In this document: positions 4,870 through 14,304 of the stretch, piece after piece | How positions within the stretch are numbered: the stretch's first letter is position 1 | Layout: every line of letters starts with the position of its first letter | Source: Planctomycetia bacterium | Lineage (GTDB): Bacteria > Planctomycetota > Planctomycetia > Pirellulales > PNKZ01 | NCBI GenBank assembly: GCA_021413845.1 | Contig: JAIOPP010000102.1 | Location: 1 to 36,163 of the forward strand | Length of the DNA: 36,163 nucleotides | Direction: 5' to 3' | The notes under the pieces: model-generated | What the model saw: the letters and a program-made list of their open reading frames with translations, nothing else | Database searches by the model: none | What the model was told of the DNA's origin: nothing | Translations under genes and position numbers: made by a program

Positions 4870-5577
4870 CTACGATCGGGCCGACAAGAAACGAACTCGC
4901 CCCGTCGTTAGCTCGTAAACGGCTCCCTGTAAACTGATCCGCTTTGCGTCGATCGCTTTCTTCGCTTCCGGCAGTCGAGCCAGCTGATCGATCGACCAAC
5001 GGACGTTCGCTTCCACCGCGGCGTCGATCCGCTGTTCGGGCGTGTCGCCGAGTAAGGGTTTCGGGAGGCCTGGCTCGATGTATCCCACGAGGGCCTTGAT
5101 GCCCGGCGCCTCGTTCGTAGGTCCTTGGAGCGCCGCCACCGCCGCGGTGACGGCCCCGCAGCCTTGGTGCCCGACGACGACGATCAGCGGCGTCGCCAAA
5201 TGCGCGACGGCATACTCCAAGCTGCCGATGACGTCGGGTGCGATCACGTTCCCCGCGACCCGCACGACGAACAGATCGCCGAACCCTTGGTCGAATACCA
5301 GTTCGATCGGCACGCGCGAATCGCTACAGCCGAGGATCGTCGCGAACGGCTTCTGAGTGCCGACGAGGTGCTTGCGCCAGTCGGCGCTTTCATGGGCGTG
5401 GCGAGTCTTGCCGTCGGCGAAACGTCGATTCCCCTCCTTTAAACGACTCAACGCGTCGGCCGCCTCCTTGTGGATCGCCGGTCTTGGCACCGCGGGCTCA
5501 GCGGCGAACGACGATGCGGCGGCGGCGATACCGGCAATGGCCAGCAGTTGCCGGCGCGTCAAACTATCATCGCTCAT
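4870..5577 (-). CDS. Exported beta-class carbonic anhydrase
   Basis: 235 residues. It catalyses CO2 + H2O to bicarbonate + H+. The beta-class zinc site is complete: Cys84, Asp86 and Arg88 in CSDSR, and His137 and Cys140 in HQGCG. RVAGNV and GSLEYAV are also family-typical. The N-terminus reads TRRQLLAIAG followed by an Ala-rich hydrophobic stretch ending at SSFAAEP, a likely Tat signal, so the enzyme should fold in the cytoplasm and act in the periplasm. The start ATG overlaps the stop of the upstream surface-protein gene (ATGA, 4 bp), which implies translational coupling and an operon. Length is normal for beta enzymes plus a leader. Confidence 0.93.
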   Translation of the reverse strand: MSDDSLTRRQLLAIAGIAAAASSFAAEPAVPRPAIHKEAADALSRLKEGNRRFADGKTRHAHESADWRKHLVGTQKPFATILGCSDSRVPIELVFDQGFGDLFVVRVAGNVIAPDVIGSLEYAVAHLATPLIVVVGHQGCGAVTAAVAALQGPTNEAPGIKALVGYIEPGLPKPLLGDTPEQRIDAAVEANVRWSIDQLARLPEAKKAIDAKRISLQGAVYELTTGRVRFLSARS

Positions 5578-6992
5578 GGTTGCTTAGGCTCCTCCAGTCG
5601 CACGAGCAGCACTTGCTGTGTCTGCCCGTCGGCGAAGTGAATCAGCGCCGAGCCCGTATCCTGAGTCAGGTTGCCGATGCCGGTCTCGATGATCGGCCGC
5701 GGCTTGCCCTTCGCGCTCCAAGCGGCGCGTTGACTGGCCTTGTCGATCATCCCTTCGAGCGTCTGCGTTTCTTTCGTGGCGTCGTTGTTGAGCGTACCGG
5801 AAATGATCCCCTCTTTGCTGACGGCCAGCTGCATGAACAAGGTCGGGTCGCTACCCGACTTCTGTCCGTCTTGGGTGACGGCGAACACACCCAACGGCAG
5901 CCACTCGGAATCTTCCGGCTTCGTTTGCGGAGCGCTCGCCGCAATGGCGTCGGCCTGCTGTGCATACTCCTCGGCTGTGGCGACTTGTTGACCGTTGCTA
6001 TAGACGGCGTCGTCTTGGTAGTAGACGTCGCTCCCGTAGTCGTACGAAGCGGCCTCGCCGCCGCCGTAGCCGACCCAACCGGCGACGGCACTCCATGCCG
6101 CCCAGCGGTAAGGTCGATTGATCCTCCAGGCCGCCCAGTTTGGATGGTCCGACCAGAAGTCGAGCCGCGGATGATTTTCGTGGATCTGATCTCGCACCTC
6201 ATCACGGCGCTGCTGGCGATTCTGCTGCCACTCTTGGCGATTCGCGATTCGATCCGGACGGCCGCCGGCACCGGGACGTTGGGCGATGCCGGGGAGCTGC
6301 CCGGCACCAGGACGATTAGCAATTCCGGGCCGATCACCAACGCCAGGCCGCTCACCGATACCAGGGCGATCTCCGATCCCGGGCCGATCTCCAACGCCGG
6401 GTCGATCGCCCAAGTTCGGGCGGCCGGCAGGGAGTGTCGAAGCATTACCGGGTCGGTTATCGCGGAAGAAGTCGGCAGCCGCTCCGCCGCCACCGCCGCC
6501 CGGTCGAGCACCGATGGCACCCGTCGAAGGACGCGGAAGATCGAGGAAGTTGTTCAACTGTCCTGCATTTGGTCGTCCGCCGCCGGCGATGCCCGCTCCT
6601 GGTCCTCCCGCACCGATGCCGCCGGGTCGCGGAGCCGGCCCCGGCCGATTCCCGCCGATCGCGCCGGTTCCCGGACGCGCGCCCGCACCGCTGCCGATCG
6701 CACCAGTCGAAGGTCTGTTCGCCCCTGGATTCGGTCGCGCACTACCGCCGCCGAGAGACGGTGAACGACCTGGGGCCGCCGCCGGCCGCGACATCGCCGC
6801 GCCACCGCCGGGCCGTGCTCCACCACCCCCGCCCCCCATGCTTGGTCGCGCGCCACCGCCACCGCCACCGCCTCCGGCACGCCCACCACCTCCTCCACCC
6901 CCGCGTCCACCGCCACCGCGACCATAGAGTTCTTGCCAGACTGGAATGTTCAAAGCGGCGGCGATGATCAAAAGCCAGGTGATACGTTTCAT
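5574..6992 (-). CDS. Gly/Arg/Pro-rich 'protocadherin-like' surface protein
   Basis: 472 residues. The N-terminal hydrophobic stretch (MKRITWLLIIAAALNIPVW) is a signal peptide or anchor. Residues about 25-240 are low-complexity: runs of six to eight Gly broken by Arg/Ala, then tandem RPG-type units (GDRPGIGDRPGIGERPGVGD). After this come a basic, Gln-rich helix (QEWQQNRQQRRDEVRDQI), the planctomycete-typical HPRLDFWSDHPNWAAWRINR patch, and a folded C-terminal domain (about 350-472, WLPLGVFAVTQDG to LLVRLEEPKQP). Similar planctomycete proteins have been annotated 'mu-protocadherin, putative cell-surface protein'; the function is unknown and the name is not evidence of homology to cadherins. The SnoaL-like gene lies 51 bp upstream, and the carbonic anhydrase overlaps its stop by 4 bp. 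The location is inferred to be periplasm or surface. Confidence 0.85.
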   Translation of the reverse strand: MKRITWLLIIAAALNIPVWQELYGRGGGGRGGGGGGGRAGGGGGGGGARPSMGGGGGGARPGGGAAMSRPAAAPGRSPSLGGGSARPNPGANRPSTGAIGSGAGARPGTGAIGGNRPGPAPRPGGIGAGGPGAGIAGGGRPNAGQLNNFLDLPRPSTGAIGARPGGGGGGAAADFFRDNRPGNASTLPAGRPNLGDRPGVGDRPGIGDRPGIGERPGVGDRPGIANRPGAGQLPGIAQRPGAGGRPDRIANRQEWQQNRQQRRDEVRDQIHENHPRLDFWSDHPNWAAWRINRPYRWAAWSAVAGWVGYGGGEAASYDYGSDVYYQDDAVYSNGQQVATAEEYAQQADAIAASAPQTKPEDSEWLPLGVFAVTQDGQKSGSDPTLFMQLAVSKEGIISGTLNNDATKETQTLEGMIDKASQRAAWSAKGKPRPIIETGIGNLTQDTGSALIHFADGQTQQVLLVRLEEPKQP

Positions 6993-8110: not shown

Positions 8111-9553
8111 TTAAAACTCGACGTGATAGCGTTCGGTCATCTTGCGCCGAATGGCCGCCGTTTCGTCGTCGATCATCCGCATGATGTCGACATGCTCGAG
8201 ATTCGCGGCGGACGCTTCCATCCGCCCCTGAATGCGAGCGGTGCTCTCCGCGGATCGGCCGTAGTAGTAATTGCCGGAGGTGTAAGTATTTCGTTCGTTG
8301 GCCGAGGCGCGAATCGAAGCTCCGCGCTGCTTGCCGGCAGTAATGCGCAGCGATTTCGCGACGCCCTGCGAATAGTCAAGCAACTCCGGGTCGACGTCGA
8401 GCAGCGGCAATTCGTCGATCTTGCGCGCTTGCCGATCGATCCACGTGCCGAAGGCGCCGGCTTTGAAGTTCAACGTCGGGAAGCGGATCTCGGTGATCAA
8501 GGCACTGACCTTCGCGAAGTGTTGTCGCGACTTCTGAGCTATCGCGCTCGTCTGTTTCGTGGACTGCGATGAGGTGTCGGGAGAACTCGCTAAGGGCTCG
8601 GCGGCGGGCAACGCCGGTTCGACGACGCTCAGGACCCGGCTCAATCCGACGGGTGTCAGGTTGCCGCCAAAAAACGCGGTGTGACCTTGGATGTCCAACG
8701 TCCAGGTTTGGAAGTCCTCGATCATCGCTCCACGCGCCGCCAAACGCTCCAGTAAAAACGGCTTCAGGACCTTGCTCAACGAGGACGGGTCACGGGTAAA
8801 ATCGATGCGGATCATTCCCGTCGCTTGGTCGAGCACGCGCACGCCGAGCGCCATCCCTTCGATCGAAGCGATAATCTGCGCCGTGGCGTTCGCGTCGAGC
8901 TTGGCATCGCGGATCGTCGGGGAAGCACTCATCACGTGCTTGACGGAGTCGAGGTCCGCCGCATTGGCGAGGTCGAACCCGAGCATGATCTCCGTGCCGA
9001 CGGTCTCCGGGAAGCTCGCGATCTTCATCAGGTACGGCGAGTCCAGCGGCTTCGATGCCGCACGACTCCAACCGGCCGCCTTCTGGCGATCCGCGGGTCC
9101 CAGAATTCCGAACGTCTGCGGAGCCAGTTTCAAGAGATAAGAATCGAAAGGAAGCAGTACACTCGCAACGGTTCCCAACTGCTCGCGCGGCCCCGTGATT
9201 CCCGTCGCGAAGGATTCCAAGGATTGATCGGACTTGGTTTCCAATACCGCTGCTTCCCAGCGCGGCGAGAGATCGATCAGGTTGAGGCGCGCTGCGAACA
9301 GACAGCGTTGAATCTCACCGCGCGGCAAGATCGAACGTAATCCTCCCGTCGCTTGATCTGCCGCGTTCCAACCCGCAGTGGTTACAAATTTACTGCCGCG
9401 AACCCTCTCCGCGTTGATCATCACCAAGACGTTGGCGTCGGACGGAGAATGCCCGATGAGCGTCTGCCAAGATTCCGCTGCAGTAGCGCGGGTCGAGCCG
9501 GAAACAAGAGCCGATGCTAAACATACGGCGGTCACTAGATGCTTGATCGTCAT
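8111..9553 (-). CDS. Secreted hypothetical protein, planctomycete-type
   Basis: 480 residues from MTIKHLVTAVCLASALVSG, with a signal peptide ending near TRATAAES. An upstream in-frame extension (to 9661) is basic and Pro/Thr-rich and would bury the signal, so I reject it. The body is a soluble alpha/beta protein (SDANVLVMINAERV, LGFDLANAADLDSVKHVM, GMIRIDFTRDPSSL). It resembles the large uncharacterised planctomycete families whose domains start with 'vl.inve.l..S' and monitor surrogate 'error' variables, but I cannot assign a name. A Ser/Gln-rich linker (about 345-365) separates a C-terminal region ending with a polar helix (MIDDETAAIRRKMTERYHVEF). It is followed by the SnoaL-like gene after 170 bp, so co-transcription is possible. 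Confidence 0.75.
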   Translation of the reverse strand: MTIKHLVTAVCLASALVSGSTRATAAESWQTLIGHSPSDANVLVMINAERVRGSKFVTTAGWNAADQATGGLRSILPRGEIQRCLFAARLNLIDLSPRWEAAVLETKSDQSLESFATGITGPREQLGTVASVLLPFDSYLLKLAPQTFGILGPADRQKAAGWSRAASKPLDSPYLMKIASFPETVGTEIMLGFDLANAADLDSVKHVMSASPTIRDAKLDANATAQIIASIEGMALGVRVLDQATGMIRIDFTRDPSSLSKVLKPFLLERLAARGAMIEDFQTWTLDIQGHTAFFGGNLTPVGLSRVLSVVEPALPAAEPLASSPDTSSQSTKQTSAIAQKSRQHFAKVSALITEIRFPTLNFKAGAFGTWIDRQARKIDELPLLDVDPELLDYSQGVAKSLRITAGKQRGASIRASANERNTYTSGNYYYGRSAESTARIQGRMEASAANLEHVDIMRMIDDETAAIRRKMTERYHVEF

Positions 9554-9918
9554 GGATGTAGCCGGCGTGAAGGGTGGTGTCGTGTGCGGGGCTGTGGCTC
9601 GCCAGCTTAGCAAACGCCTCGAAGCCGGCGCCGTAAACCGGCGTATCCGTAGAAAACTCATCCATTCCTAACAACGGTGCGATTTACAAGCTCGGAGGTC
9701 GGCTTCCGACGTCGAAGACGCGGCTTGGAACCGGCCAGCGTGCGAGTCACGCGAGGTTATTAAACGTCTATTGATGAACGGCCTAAGACCACGGACATGG
9801 CGACGTCTGCATCACGGTGAGCTTTGACGTTCTCGTTCGGCCGCAAGAATACAATACTCTCGATTTGCTGCGCCGGTGCCTGTCGGTTCTGACGACAAGT
9901 TCGGCCTAGAAGCCTGCG
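9554..9918. other. Gene-free stretch
   Basis: These 365 bp separate the secreted 480-aa gene's start from the RND fragment's stop. I see only short open frames with poor composition and a short hairpin (GTCGG-CTT-CCGAC, about 9700-9712). It probably contains the promoter of the 480-aa gene, but no convincing -35/-10 pair can be assigned. Confidence 0.5.
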
Positions 9919-10304
9919 TTAGGGACTGTGAGTTGGACCGGCAACCGGCTCGGATACTTTCGGTTGTCTTCCGAATCGCACGACGAGGTAATAAAAGACG
10001 GGCGTCAGAAAGATGCCGAAGATCGTTACGCCGAGCATCCCCGAGAAGACGGCGATTCCGAGCGTGCGCCGCATTTCCGCACCGGCGCCGAACGCCAGCG
10101 CGAGAGGTACAACGCCCAAGATGAACGCGAGCGAAGTCATGATGATCGGCCGTAATCGCAGCCGACAGGCTTCGACCGTAGCGTCGACGGGAGACGCACC
10201 TTTCGCCGACTTCTCTTTGGCGAATTCGACGATCAAGATGGCGTTCTTGCTTGCCAAGCCGACCAGCACGACGAAACCGATCTGAACGAAGATGATCTTC
10301 GTTC
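9919..10304 (-). pseudogene. RND efflux transporter (HAE1/AcrB-like), C-terminal remnant
   Basis: About 128 residues remain of a family protein that normally has about 1,040. The remnant starts near IFVQIGFVVLVGLASKNAILI, the start of the eleventh-helix region of AcrB-type pumps, continues through RLRPIIMTSLAFILGVVPLA and GAEMRRTLGIAVFSGM, and ends with the last helix (GIFLTPVFYYLVV) and a short tail. These are strong hydrophobic-and-adiponecrotic-efflux (HAE1) signatures. All upstream domains, including the proton-relay aspartates and both porter domains, are absent because the sequence changes abruptly at the palindrome 10284-10304. The remnant cannot be a working pump. Its C-terminus is intact, so the break came from the 5' side. 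No membrane-fusion partner is nearby. Confidence 0.88.
10284..10304. repeat. Perfect palindrome at a rearrangement junction
   Basis: GAACGAAGAT (10284-10293), a central G, then ATCTTCGTTC (10295-10304). The left arm is genuine RND coding sequence on the minus strand. The right arm leads into an unrelated plus-strand ORF, so the palindrome sits exactly where homology to the pump ends. Confidence 0.8.
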
Positions 10305-10786
10305 GCACGCGCGATAACGACGTCGTTCGCGAAGTGAACGATACGATCGCCGCGGCGATTCAATCGAGCTTGCGCACTCAAGCTAAGACGCGAGAGGTTC
10401 AATTGCTGATGGCAGCCGAGAAGTTCAAGAGCAATCGTGCCGAGCTCACCTCAACGGCTCGGCAAGCGACCAAGCTCTCGGCGGACACGGCAGCGCTCTT
10501 TCGGCGTGCCGCAGAACAATCACTGGCGATCGTCGAGTCGCACGACGTGCCGGCCGCACGAACGTACTACCGGATGAAACGCGAATCACTATTGAAGAAG
10601 GCGGAGATCGCCGAAGCCTCGCGCGACGGATATACGATCGCCGCCGATGAATCGATTGCCGAGCTGCATGTGATGTTCGACAAGATGGAGCCGTTCGCCT
10701 TGAAGGCCAAGTCTGCAAGTGCGGAAGCGAAGCGACTCACGGCCGAGGCAGATTCGTATCGTGACGAGCATCGGGCCGAGTTCTAG
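10292..10786 (+). CDS. Orphan helical/coiled-coil ORF, probably 5'-truncated
   Basis: 164 residues by frame, but the first codons lie in the palindrome shared with the RND remnant, so native sequence probably begins near 10305 (RTRDNDVVREVNDTI). The whole product is predicted helical, rich in Ala, Glu, Lys and Arg (TREVQLLMAAEKFKSNRAEL, RESLLKKAEIAEASRDGY, ALKAKSASAEAKRLTAEAD), with no signal peptide or recognisable domain. Codon third positions look GC-biased like neighbouring genes, which favours real coding sequence. Its N-terminus may have been lost in the same event that cut the pump gene. The last 50 bp overlap the reading frame of the convergent DNA-binding gene. I cannot assign a function. 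Confidence 0.45.
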   Translation: MIFVRTRDNDVVREVNDTIAAAIQSSLRTQAKTREVQLLMAAEKFKSNRAELTSTARQATKLSADTAALFRRAAEQSLAIVESHDVPAARTYYRMKRESLLKKAEIAEASRDGYTIAADESIAELHVMFDKMEPFALKAKSASAEAKRLTAEADSYRDEHRAEF

Positions 10787-11672
10787 TCGCCCTCAAGGCC
10801 TCGCCGCGCCACGCACCTGTTTGCGTGTGCTCGCGAGCTAAGATCCAGGTTTCATCGCGACGGACGTCGACTTGCCGGATTAGACGGCCGCCTTGATCGT
10901 AAGCGATCTCACCGACGCTCCAGCCGGAGCGGTGTAGATCCGCGTGCATTTCGTCGATTGTTGGCGCGTGCATGCCATATGGCTTTCCGTTGTTGCTCGC
11001 TGCGCGCTTCAAAACGCGGCGACGTAAGTAGACCGCTGCCGTCGTCCGACCGGTCTGCTTAGCAATTGCCCCCGCCGGCAGCTTCGCGTGCAAAGCATCT
11101 TCCTCCGCCGTCCAAGCCGGGCCGATCCACGGCGGGCGACTCCCTCGCTTCTTATGCGCCGCGCTCATCTTGAGTTTCGTCGAAGCCGTGAGCGGCCGCC
11201 CGGTGTTGGCAAGCATCATCGCTTCGATGACGTGCTTCGGCCGAGGATTGCCGGTTCGCGCCGCCGAGATCTTCGCTCGACGCTCGGGATGCTGAGACTT
11301 CGCCAAGAGCTTCGGCCCGACCTTCGTCCAATTGCGCCGCCCATGCTCAGCTCGCACCGCTCGGTCTCCCTTGGTCTGCTCGAAGACGCCGAGAGCCTTG
11401 CGCCACTTCGAGACCGTCTGAGCCGTCACGCCCCACCAGAAACAGATCGCTTGATTGGCTTCTCTTCGCACCGCACGAGCGAGCGCACCGTAAACGATCA
11501 AAGCTCGATTGGAGTTGCCTCGGATACGGCCCAAGGGCCAGGGGATTCGGCCGTTGGAAATTGCCACGATCACGACTTTTCCTCGACAGGCATCGGTGAC
11601 CGCAGAGCCGTAACGGAATCGCGGTGCTGTGTATGACCCATAGCGGATTCGGTGGCGATGGTCGGGCTGCAT
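10737..11672 (-). CDS. NUMOD3-like plus Myb/SANT-like DNA-binding protein
   Basis: 311 residues from MQPDHRHRIRYGSY at 11672; the frame stays open to 11834, but that part is unlike the rest. It is strongly basic. Residues 1-95 form an N-terminal module with a helix-turn-helix-like end (WWGVTAQTVSKWRKALGV). I recall similar sequence in other Planctomycetota but cannot verify it here. Residues about 128-175 carry two copies of a NUMOD3-like motif (RRAKISAARTGNPRP; STKLKMSAAHKKRGSRP), a DNA-binding helix best known from GIY-YIG and HNH homing endonucleases. Residues about 186-222 (AWTAEEDALHAKLPAGAIAK) look like a Myb/SANT-type HTH. A C-terminal part (EMHADLHRSGWSVGEIAYD, WILAREHTQ) ends in a ragged tail. 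No GIY-YIG or HNH nuclease motif is visible. The tail after about residue 290 runs into the neighbouring ORF and may be adventitious. Confidence 0.65.
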   Translation of the reverse strand: MQPDHRHRIRYGSYTAPRFRYGSAVTDACRGKVVIVAISNGRIPWPLGRIRGNSNRALIVYGALARAVRREANQAICFWWGVTAQTVSKWRKALGVFEQTKGDRAVRAEHGRRNWTKVGPKLLAKSQHPERRAKISAARTGNPRPKHVIEAMMLANTGRPLTASTKLKMSAAHKKRGSRPPWIGPAWTAEEDALHAKLPAGAIAKQTGRTTAAVYLRRRVLKRAASNNGKPYGMHAPTIDEMHADLHRSGWSVGEIAYDQGGRLIRQVDVRRDETWILAREHTQTGAWRGEALRATRTRPDARHDTNLPRP

Positions 11673-11903
11673 GACGCCAGTATGATTTGTCAGGGTGTCG
11701 TTCGCCACTGCCGGCCGCGGTATGATACGACCTATGAAAACCTCGCTCATCCGAGCACGTCTAGAGTTGCACGGCTCGGTTTTCAATTGCTCATCGCGCG
11801 CTGTCTTGTCCTCCGTTGTCGAATCAAGGAACAAGGTGCGCGGTCAGGTCGAATTCCTGGTTATCGATCGCAAACCTCCTGCTCCGTCCATCTTGAGTCG
11901 CGC

Positions 11904-12782
11904 ATGACCAAACGACCTTCACACCATTCGCAGCATGCAATTCACCTTGATACCTCCCCTCGCCCGTCGTCGGCACCGCTGCCTGCCGACGTTGCCACGC
12001 GGCTGCTTCGCCCGAGGCGGTTTCGGCGCGGCCGGCGGATGCTCGCGGCGCGGTTGATGGCGCTGCTGTTGATTGCCGTCTGTTCGGCGGGCGGCTGCGC
12101 GCGACAGTCGGCACCGGCCGCGCCGGACGAACTATCTATGGTTGAGCAAATCGCCGCCGTGCGGGCCGGGCGAAGCGACCGAATTACTTGTGATCAGACG
12201 CCTCTCGACAGCGACACCGAAGACGGCCGAAGCCGACTCGACGCGTTGGCCGGCTTGCTTACGCTGCGCGTGTTGCAGCTCGATCACTCCGACAATCGCC
12301 TCGCGATGGCCGATGCGGCCCGCTTGCTCGCGCTCCCCGAGTTGGGTCACATTCGTTTGCGCGGCGTGCCGGTCGATGACGCGACAATGGCCGGCATTCC
12401 AACGACATCGAAGCTGCGGATCGTCAACTTGCCGAATGCCGATCTGACCGACGCAGGGTTCGCTGCCCTGCAACGATTGCCGCAGCTGGAGCAATTGCGG
12501 CTGCGCAGTCCGCGTGTCAGCGGCGCCGGTTTACAGGCATTGAAGACATTCCCCTCACTGCTGCGGCTGCACTTGATCGATGTGCCGGTCACCGACGCCG
12601 GTCTGCGCGCGTTTCACGAGTTACCGAAATTGCAGTCACTGTATCTGGATGGCGCTACCGTCAGCGACGCTGCCTACGATGCGCTCTTCGTAGCCAGACC
12701 CGATTTGCACGTTCATCTCAATCAGCGACATCACGATCGCGATCCTCATCATCACCCGCACGCTGACGCCGGGAAATCGTAA
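11904..12782 (+). CDS. Leucine-rich-repeat lipoprotein
   Basis: 292 residues from MTKRPSHHSQH, or 247 from the ATG at 12039 (MLAARLMALLLIAVCSAGGC), which gives a more conventional signal. The stretch LLIAVCSAGGC looks like a lipobox, so the mature protein is probably tethered to a membrane by Cys. From about residue 110 there are five or six LRR units of 22-24 residues (LTLRVLQLDHSDNRLAMADA, LRIVNLPNADLTDAGFAAL, LLRLHLIDVPVTDAGLRAF, LQSLYLDGATVSDAAYDAL) with the 'LTDAGL' consensus common in planctomycetes. The tail is His-rich (HHDRDPHHHPHAD), perhaps metal-binding. LRR proteins usually mediate protein-protein contacts; the partner is unknown. Confidence 0.8.
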   Translation: MTKRPSHHSQHAIHLDTSPRPSSAPLPADVATRLLRPRRFRRGRRMLAARLMALLLIAVCSAGGCARQSAPAAPDELSMVEQIAAVRAGRSDRITCDQTPLDSDTEDGRSRLDALAGLLTLRVLQLDHSDNRLAMADAARLLALPELGHIRLRGVPVDDATMAGIPTTSKLRIVNLPNADLTDAGFAALQRLPQLEQLRLRSPRVSGAGLQALKTFPSLLRLHLIDVPVTDAGLRAFHELPKLQSLYLDGATVSDAAYDALFVARPDLHVHLNQRHHDRDPHHHPHADAGKS

Positions 12783-12958
12783 CCCGGGGGAAATTCGTCG
12801 GCCGGCGGCGCTCGCAACCGGCCTGCGCAGCAGTTACCATACGACATCGTCGCGGGTGGGCCGAGTGCGCCTGCCGTGGGCGATGCGTTGCGGCGGCCGT
12901 GTCGTTCGACAGATGCGCGTCGCCTAGCTAATCGTTATGAGTTGGGAGATTTGTCGCC

Positions 12959-14032
12959 ATGCCTCGGCCTACAGTTCGGAAGCTCGTCATCGGTTCGGTC
13001 GTGGGAACGCTGTTGATCGGCGCCGTGATCGCTTGGTCGCCTACGGCTTGGTCGCTACTGCGGGAGCCCAAGGCGGCGACCGACATGACGGCGAAGGCCG
13101 ATGCTTTCCTCGCGTCGCTCGACGCAGGACGGCGCGAGAAGGCCACGATGGCCTACGACAACGCGGCCCGCACCGACTGGCATTTCATTCCCAAGCCGAC
13201 GCGCAAAGGTCTGCAAATACGTGACATGGACCAAGCTCAGCGCCAGACGGCGCTCGCCCTGTTGCGGGCCTCGCTCAGCCAGACCGGTTACGACAAAGCC
13301 GCGAAGATCATGGAGCTCGAACTGCTGCTGGCAGAACTCGAAAAGACCCGCGTCGGTGGTCCGCTGCGCGATGCCGAGCGGTATTACTTCACGGTGTTCG
13401 GCAAGCCGACGGCCGCCGGTCGTTGGGGGCTCAGCATCGAAGGGCATCACCTGTCGTTGAACTTCACGGTCGACGCCGGCCGTGTGGTCAGCTCGACGCC
13501 GACCGTGTACGCCACGAATCCGGCGGTCGTGAAGGCGAGCGCCGTGCCGCAGATCAAAGTCGGCACGCGCGTGCTGGCCCTCGAAGAGACGCTGGCGTTC
13601 GACCTGTTGCGCTCGCTCACCGCCGAGCAGCGGAAGGGAGCGATCATTGCCGAGAAGGCCCCGGCCGAGATTCGTGCCGCCGGCGAACCCCAGCCACCGC
13701 AAGATACGGCCGTCGGTTTGGCCGCCGCTCAGTTGACCTCTGCGCAATCCACGACGCTGCGCCAGTTGCTCGATGTCTATGCCGGGAACCTTCCGGAAGA
13801 CGTGGCCGAGGCGCGGCTGGCGGCCATTGATCAGGCGGGCTTCGAGAAGATCAAATTCGCTTGGGCCGGCGCCGATACCGAAGGGATCGGCCATTACTAT
13901 CGCGTGCAAGGCCCGACGTTCTTGATCGAGTTCGTCAACGTCCAGCCCGACGCGGCCGGCAACCCGGCGAATCACATCCACTCGATCTGGCGTGACATGG
14001 CCGGCGACTTCGCGATTGCCGGCAAGAAGTAG
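12959..14032 (+). CDS. DUF3500-family protein with N-terminal anchor
   Basis: 357 residues. A hydrophobic helix near residues 8-30 (LVIGSVVGTLLIGAVIAW) serves as signal or anchor, so the domain should face the periplasm. The DUF3500 features follow: ARTDWHFIPKPTRKGLQIRD, then RQTALALLRASLSQTGYDKA, AERYYFTVFGKPTAAGRWGL, GHHLSLNFTV, and a second half with LLDVYAGNLPEDVAEARL and the closing NHIHSIWRDMAGDF. Length matches the family. The biochemical role of DUF3500 is not established. It follows the LRR gene after 176 bp on the same strand, and an operon is possible but not shown. Confidence 0.85.
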   Translation: MPRPTVRKLVIGSVVGTLLIGAVIAWSPTAWSLLREPKAATDMTAKADAFLASLDAGRREKATMAYDNAARTDWHFIPKPTRKGLQIRDMDQAQRQTALALLRASLSQTGYDKAAKIMELELLLAELEKTRVGGPLRDAERYYFTVFGKPTAAGRWGLSIEGHHLSLNFTVDAGRVVSSTPTVYATNPAVVKASAVPQIKVGTRVLALEETLAFDLLRSLTAEQRKGAIIAEKAPAEIRAAGEPQPPQDTAVGLAAAQLTSAQSTTLRQLLDVYAGNLPEDVAEARLAAIDQAGFEKIKFAWAGADTEGIGHYYRVQGPTFLIEFVNVQPDAAGNPANHIHSIWRDMAGDFAIAGKK

Positions 14033-14037
14033 AGCAT

Positions 14038-14304
14038 TCTCAGCCGTTTTCGTTCGATCAAGTGACCGCAGACGTCGTACCGGTACTCGATCGGCCGCGT
14101 GATCGTGCCCGCGTTGTTCTTGAAGAGGACCACGGCCATGCGGTTGCGTTGGTCACACTGGTACTCGACGACGTGGTCGTAGTCCAGGTCCGACGATTTT
14201 CTTGTCTTCGAGATGCGATTCCCTTCGGCGTCGTACCCGTAGATTGACCGGCGCCCACCGTCAGGGCGACCACGACTTACCAACCCATAGAACTTTGTTG
14301 ACAA
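14038..14304 (-). pseudogene. RHS/YD-repeat protein remnant
   Basis: About 85 codons of minus-strand sequence resemble the core of an RHS repeat protein: IYGYDAEGNRISKTRKSSDL, VVEYQCDQRNRMAVVLF, IEYRYDVCGHLIERKRL. RHS proteins form large secreted beta-shells and normally exceed 1,000 residues with dozens of YD repeats. Here only about three repeats remain, and two conserved aromatic positions are Cys (YQCD, YDVC), suggesting decay. The open frame runs a further 70 bp into the 3' end of DUF3500, which is not homologous. It lies between two plus-strand genes and is probably debris from an RHS locus elsewhere in the genome. Confidence 0.7.

Follow-up and report, generated by a model that had tools for sequence, protein, structure and literature searches.

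An open reading frame on a planctomycete contig encodes a modular protein without a recognisable nuclease. Our preferred explanation, in which we place about even confidence, is that it belongs to a family of NUMOD-type DNA-binding regulators that phages and mobile elements carry and that reside in planctomycetes. The proteins of this family would be sequence-specific DNA binders built like the targeting half of a phage homing endonuclease, with a helix-turn-helix (HTH), NUMOD3 and a SANT-like repeat strung together and a small β-barrel fused to the HTH in the place of the nuclease. The NUMOD3 helices and the HTHs would wrap a long DNA site and, with no nuclease present, binding alone would be left as the activity. 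The bound protein could then block or recruit RNA polymerase, and the regulated targets would be the original carrier phage or element and the family gene itself.

The window, that is, the whole stretch of 36,163 nucleotides analysed here, carries the gene on its minus strand, where a frame of 311 amino acids (P0001) runs from an ATG at 11672 to a stop at 10737, as placed in the first-pass annotation of this DNA. It is a genuine gene and not a chance ORF, because relatives are 40–56% identical to it in stretches within residues 3–232, and because dN/dS against a paralogue on contig C151 of the same genome is 0.17 (dN = 0.22, dS = 1.29 and thus near saturation, 134 codons). Across these 134 residues the two proteins are 72% identical, and the 379 bp that both copies have in common lie within the ORF and the 15 bp upstream of it. 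Codon bias alone was too weak to decide the matter, the 365-codon frame having GC contents of 0.62/0.55/0.67 by codon position, under our flagging rule. The dN/dS ratios were 0.08–0.18 in the five phage pairs tested and 0.19–0.49 in other planctomycete pairs; they are rough, since dS ranged from 0.45 to 2.6 among the tested pairs.

The make-up proposed in the first-pass annotation, namely an N-terminal module, an HTH, NUMOD3-like motifs and a SANT-like HTH, is borne out by Pfam and by AF2 models (Table 1). PF07460 (NUMOD3) matched the window protein at 23.6 bits, above the gathering score of 20.4 (E = 4.8e-5), with two stretches at E ≤ 10, the best of them at residues 158–184; in a six-frame search of the genome the same residues scored 17.2 bits, below the cut-off. 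Further Pfam matches of the protein, to HTH_23 and to rhamnose mutarotase, were sub-threshold. Structure prediction, which had been suggested as a check, gave two HTHs and helices over the NUMOD3-like units. In the AF2 model of the whole protein (12-sequence alignment, mean pLDDT 68.9), four short strands at 24–58 are followed by an HTH at 62–94, a run of helices at 101–176 that spans the two NUMOD3-like units, and a second HTH at 189–226; the limits of the first NUMOD3-like unit are our own reading. The top structural match of the second HTH was the Engrailed homeodomain (45 residues, rmsd 2.0), with other HTH proteins scoring equally, and a Z of 5.3 signifies a common fold only.

Table 1. 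Modules predicted in the window protein and their positions in the window
Module	Residues	Window positions	Strand	Basis
N-terminal module, predicted four-strand small barrel	12-60	11493..11639	(-)	AF2 of the module alone; conserved motif
First helix-turn-helix	62-95	11388..11489	(-)	AF2 helices 62-70, 73-80, 84-94
First NUMOD3-like unit	129-157	11202..11288	(-)	Weaker second NUMOD3 stretch; helices 129-140, 146-157
NUMOD3 motif	158-184	11121..11201	(-)	Pfam PF07460, 23.6 bits
SANT/homeodomain-like HTH	186-228	10989..11117	(-)	pLDDT 82-92 at 191-220; Engrailed homeodomain Z 5.3
C-terminal mini-domain, GWSxG motif	238-297	10782..10961	(-)	AF2; recurrence in L010, L012, L014

The C-terminal mini-domain is a separate small unit that the annotation had left unnamed. 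It is predicted as alpha-beta4 at about residues 239–294 (block pLDDT 35–69), and the sub-threshold rhamnose-mutarotase match falls here (E = 0.035). The three further ORFs that carry it, from related genomes, are otherwise unrelated; by eye it is found in none of the other 23 aligned members, and its fusion to a family protein was seen only in the window protein. Homology to the small protein of the phage gene trio described below was considered, and the comparison gave no support.

Throughout the family the N-terminal module (N-module) is conserved and is followed by the HTH (WWGV..TV..WR). What comes after varies: one or two NUMOD3 units or a spacer, then one to three SANT-like repeats, and some phage and IMG/VR members stop shortly past the HTH or the first NUMOD3. 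At E ≤ 0.1, Pfam found NUMOD3 in 10 of 24 members, HTH_23 likewise in 10 of them, and neither in ten further ORFs. HNH and GIY-YIG domains were absent from the window protein at E ≤ 10, and no nuclease family was matched in any of 34 members, window protein included, at E ≤ 0.1; the lack of a nuclease noted on first inspection thus extends to the family.

NUMOD3 is a motif of homing endonucleases. The family could accordingly be the relic, or the domesticated rest, of a free-standing homing endonuclease after loss of its nuclease domain, and we regard this as unlikely. It would agree with the SANT-like repeats that true HNH endonucleases such as Thibault gp103 also possess, and with the frequent decay of copies, 17 of the 70 match rows of a scan of the class having in-frame stops; however, the members without a nuclease include phage copies under purifying selection, the N-module is conserved where the nuclease would be, and a nuclease-bearing homologue with this N-module was not encountered in the searches made.

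Two of the ten further ORFs contain foreign pieces. At L087 2495-4510 (-) in G068, no stop interrupts the family ORF, which continues in frame into sequence resembling a DUF1559 pseudopilin (E = 1.6e-58) and totals 672 aa. In G352 (L075 486-1370 (+)), a DUF4011 piece (E = 3.9e-8, residues 2–48) precedes, in frame, a family ORF whose N-module is missing its first part; the join may be a true fusion or insertion, or else the short contig is misassembled.

A role in anti-phage defence was also considered and set aside: PADLOC matches were scattered, four of the 24 members hitting a homing-endonuclease model (best 1.9e-4) and one hitting mad1 (0.0063), with none for the window protein. NCBIfam TnpA/transposase models matched one or two of the 24 members (2.1e-5 to 2.8e-4), again without the window protein, and are attributed to the HTH.

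The N-module is defined by the motif G.Y..P....G........G..........IPWP. It had no Pfam match in the 34 members scanned and no PHROGs match in the six scanned. Because the searched libraries contain no model for it, the family appears, as suspected at first, to be undescribed, and to be a new arrangement of known modules; we found no literature linking NUMOD3 with Planctomycetes. To describe its conservation, 46 ORFs that passed a coverage filter were reduced to 40 by removing near-identical ones, L107 and other partial matches having been filtered out. Y14 and W45 are invariant across the 40 sequences, and the columns conserved at 85% or more hold G, Y, P, I, W, L, A and V, plus E71 (38/40) and R91 (39/40), the only charged residues at this level. 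Neither His, Asp, Lys, Asn nor Cys reaches 85%. Since the conserved charged residues are confined to the HTH, a metal-dependent active site in the N-module is unlikely, and a nuclease hidden there was rejected on the same alignment, residues of catalytic type not being conserved.

Modelled alone, the N-module reached a pLDDT of 78.3 and a pTM of 0.66, with pLDDT 86–90 at residues 21–60. The best structural matches of the predicted barrel are Tudor-like and include the RNA-polymerase-contact domains of CarD/CdnL, UvrD/PcrA and Mfd. CarD had the best Z (4.0, rmsd 2.0, 47 residues), and eukaryotic Tudor domains (Z 3.7) were on par with the RNA-polymerase-binding domains. The best Foldseek E-value for the model was 0.51, and scores at this level are typical of a common arrangement. 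A PDB fold search returned no match at E ≤ 0.001 for the models of the whole protein and of the N-module, an absence which does not imply a new fold; the same threshold gave no match in BFVD for the N-module model, and a sequence search for solved relatives gave chance-level matches only. Kinship with CarD/Mfd by sequence was unsupported: comparison of the planctomycete Mfd RID with the family profile gave an hhalign probability of 0.25%, i.e. nothing, and PF02559 was not among the Pfam matches of the 34 members, window protein included. We speculate, with only a slim chance of being right, that the N-module may be a new RNA-polymerase-contacting Tudor-like barrel. The family would then be an overlooked class of phage-derived regulators, in which a polymerase-recruiting domain has replaced the nuclease and variable SANT repeats set the DNA target. 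If so, the targeting kit of homing endonucleases would have become a modular transcription-factor kit in phages and planctomycetes.

The regulatory role in our preferred explanation is favoured by the phage members, because these have a constant small HTH-type neighbour and low dN/dS. In an unrooted FastTree tree of the 40 N-modules they form a clade with support 0.975. All six loci of this clade that were examined (AP1, L100, L101, L102, L104 and L105; the protein of L103 is identical to that of L102) have a trio in which the family gene is preceded by a conserved small gene and followed by a small gene of HTH type; in all six the conserved small gene overlaps the start of the family gene by about 14 nt. 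The small protein encoded just upstream (L017, L100, L101, L102, L104, L105) reads PGW...GTV......GAL.R...TG.......G....L.QRK..AAL. The third gene is, by our reading, Cro-like in five loci and TrfB-like in one; in AP1 it is annotated 'transcriptional regulator', and in L104 it had weak PHROGs matches to regulators (0.0038, 0.0061), its best match (1.8e-5) being a family of unknown function. Neither the TrfB-like gene nor the conserved small gene, of which one member was scanned, matched a PHROGs family. In AP1, terminase genes begin about 0.3 kb past the end of the trio. Two pairs are close (AP1/L104 86% identical, L100/L101 93%), and the six trios therefore represent about four lineages rather than six independent ones. 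Against the regulatory reading, moreover, the phage proteins lie on a branch distant from the window protein (26–31% identity), and the neighbours of the window copy are unlike the phage trio.

With the window protein as query, 11 of 57 genomes were matched, its own included. In five of them (G010, G021, G023, G037, G053) the match was limited to a short piece or to the C-terminal mini-domain; clear members were present in the other six (G000, G001, G003, G004, G031, G048). A profile of residues 1–224 matched 39 of 397 genomes of the class, again with its own, often several times per genome and often in decayed form. Of the 70 match rows, 16 span the model without a stop; rows are matches and not genes, since certain genes are missing the middle units or appear as two rows. 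In a sample of the phylum, 10 of 392 genomes were matched by a scan that scores few candidates per genome and may miss some, and rows outside the class showed the SANT-like repeat only. The related proteins in Planctomycetota that the first-pass annotation had mentioned are supported, six named loci lying in Planctomycetota or Gemmataceae MAGs, one labelled just 'bacterium'. Its term 'lineage-specific' is not supported, as the family also occurs in one of 50,697 phage records (Acidovorax phage AP1), in one of 72,556 plasmid records (a Xanthomonas campestris plasmid) and, with a phage profile, in eight IMG/VR contigs, two of which (L102 and L103) encode an identical protein. The AP1 protein as query found one viral contig; scans of viral contigs gave no relatives when the query was the window protein or profile A2.

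In the same N-module tree, copies from the genus of the window cluster with those of G411, a complete genome of the same order (support 0.913). The clustering points to resident copies that duplicate locally and decay, rather than to fast hopping. We think it improbable that the planctomycete copies are functionless remains of old phage or element insertions, retained by chance. The patchy presence, with no match to the window protein in G002 of the same genus, could be explained in this way, as could two further decayed family fragments in the window's own genome (contigs C32 and C26) and the adjoining RND gene, which is a C-terminal fragment, but the ORF in the window is intact and its dN/dS against the paralogue is low.

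The window copy is flanked by the RND-pump fragment and a small ORF on one side and by an ORF of LRR type, in our reading, on the other. The fragment, at 9919-10308 (-), matches ACR_tran (E = 1.1e-43) over profile positions 916–1020 of 1021; an RND gene lies about 7 kb from the family copy on C151 too. The small ORF at 10412-10786 (+) has no Pfam match, is convergent with the family gene and overlaps its 3' end by 50 bp. Farther along, a short ORF at 13972-14304 (-), which we take to resemble an RHS-repeat fragment, sits at the 3' end of a conserved gene (12959-14032). In G005 the LRR-type gene adjoins the next gene, and the family gene is absent from the 5.4 kb read upstream; this is no clean empty site, because the other window genes tested were unmatched there. 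Against the regulatory reading, no conserved operator was found. Upstream regions of 250 bp from the window copy and the paralogue aligned no better than shuffles (p = 0.335), and that of the window copy contains no exact 7-bp inverted repeat. Such a repeat is present at a few other loci, e.g. L100, L105 and L140, inside upstream reading frames. Rfam, group I and II introns included, gave nothing at the gathering threshold in 9500-13000, and the idea that an intron or a different Rfam element surrounds the gene was dismissed accordingly. Repeats in 10300-12300 are short and imperfect (15–17 nt).

The idea of a mobile element, also raised at the outset, stood in part: copies are patchy, multiple and decaying, some lie beside recombinases and one (G003) near DUF1580/Prim-Pol, but neither common termini nor a shared insertion target were found. 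Flanking repeats or an insertion target common to the copies, proposed as a check, were not found in the flanks in the own genome and in G411, and a mobile unit with fixed ends was rejected, as G411's six copies and the own genome revealed no common termini. In G411 the gene is common to all six copies, with about 100–185 bp of flank in some pairs, one such pair being interrupted by a 326-bp insertion; one pair of copies belongs to a segmental duplication of 3.8 kb, and two copies have lost their 5' end. In the own genome, L050 4360-4446 (C32) and L051 52-140 (C26) have in common a repeat of about 90 bp, 83% identical, which is directly next to the decayed family fragment on C32 and some 4 kb away from the one on C26; a second repeat, of 80 bp, occurs at both loci as well.

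Several neighbours would suit a targeting or accessory subunit of a mobile element, guiding a separate nuclease or recombinase in trans, for example a serine or tyrosine recombinase or a homing nuclease. At L107 the family gene lies 4 nt downstream of a serine recombinase ORF (Pfam Resolvase, 4.7e-15). At L106 it is downstream of a tyrosine integrase gene, with a small ORF 1.3 kb upstream that we read as GIY-YIG-like (Pfam: sub-threshold RE_Eco29kI, E = 0.0015). On plasmid L018 it adjoins a 'recombinase family protein' gene, at L140 (G003, of the window's genus) it lies 1.2 kb past a DUF1580 and Prim-Pol pair, and on G252:C55 an integrase is 3.6 kb away. We nevertheless judge this role somewhat unlikely, as the neighbours change from locus to locus. 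On long contigs of six genomes an integrase was within 25 kb of at least 4 of 15 copies, against about 2.2 expected from density by our own arithmetic, and linkage to tyrosine integrases was set aside for want of clear enrichment. When the window, L139, L140 and a further 20 loci (L143-L162, each at most 20 kb long) were scanned by phmmer with eight marker proteins and the window's small neighbour ORF, only L140's own DUF1580/Prim-Pol was matched; the scan is insensitive to distant recombinases and missed the G252:C55 integrase. On the L107 contig the family gene comes directly after the first of two related serine recombinase ORFs (5536-6414 and 11843-12631), which are separated by about 5.4 kb.

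If our preferred explanation, a nuclease-free regulator, is correct, NUMOD and SANT modules, known mainly from homing enzymes, would also form stand-alone regulators, and phages and large planctomycete genomes would gain a modular, readily recombined kit for DNA recognition. The family offers a definable and searchable N-module, a compact phage trio, and the question of the binding partner of the N-module.

Among known systems, the Tudor-like domains of CarD/CdnL, UvrD/PcrA and Mfd resemble the barrel in its predicted fold, without profile support in the comparison with the Mfd RID. The D5-like regulators (PHROG 323, 'transcriptional regulator, D5-like') share the array of SANT-like repeats: the C-terminal repeats of AP1 match at E = 1e-25 and L104 at 2e-26, the window protein at 0.0026, and L100, L106 and L107 are unmatched. 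The best stretch covers AP1 residues 175–275 only, whereas the N-module and NUMOD3 of the family lie outside it, and the D5-like label depends on repeats that also occur in HNH endonucleases. One of these is Mycobacterium phage Thibault gp103, flanked by two ORFs annotated DNA methylase, whose SANT-like (Myb-like) repeats are 35% identical to AP1 across 91 residues; it has HNH_3 (2.3e-9) beside them, and the window family has no HNH that we found. The window protein also had a PHROGs match to 'homing endonuclease' (E = 0.003). In contrast to NUMOD homing endonucleases of the I-TevI and I-HmuI class, free-standing or in introns, the family has an N-terminal barrel module and no GIY-YIG or HNH that we found, and no Rfam intron at 9500-13000 in the window; like them, it carries NUMOD3 and HTH modules as beads on a string. 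As a published precedent for regulation, I-TevI, a homing endonuclease of the NUMOD class, represses its own promoter through an operator at which cleavage is greatly reduced (PMC3943268, PMC2988022).
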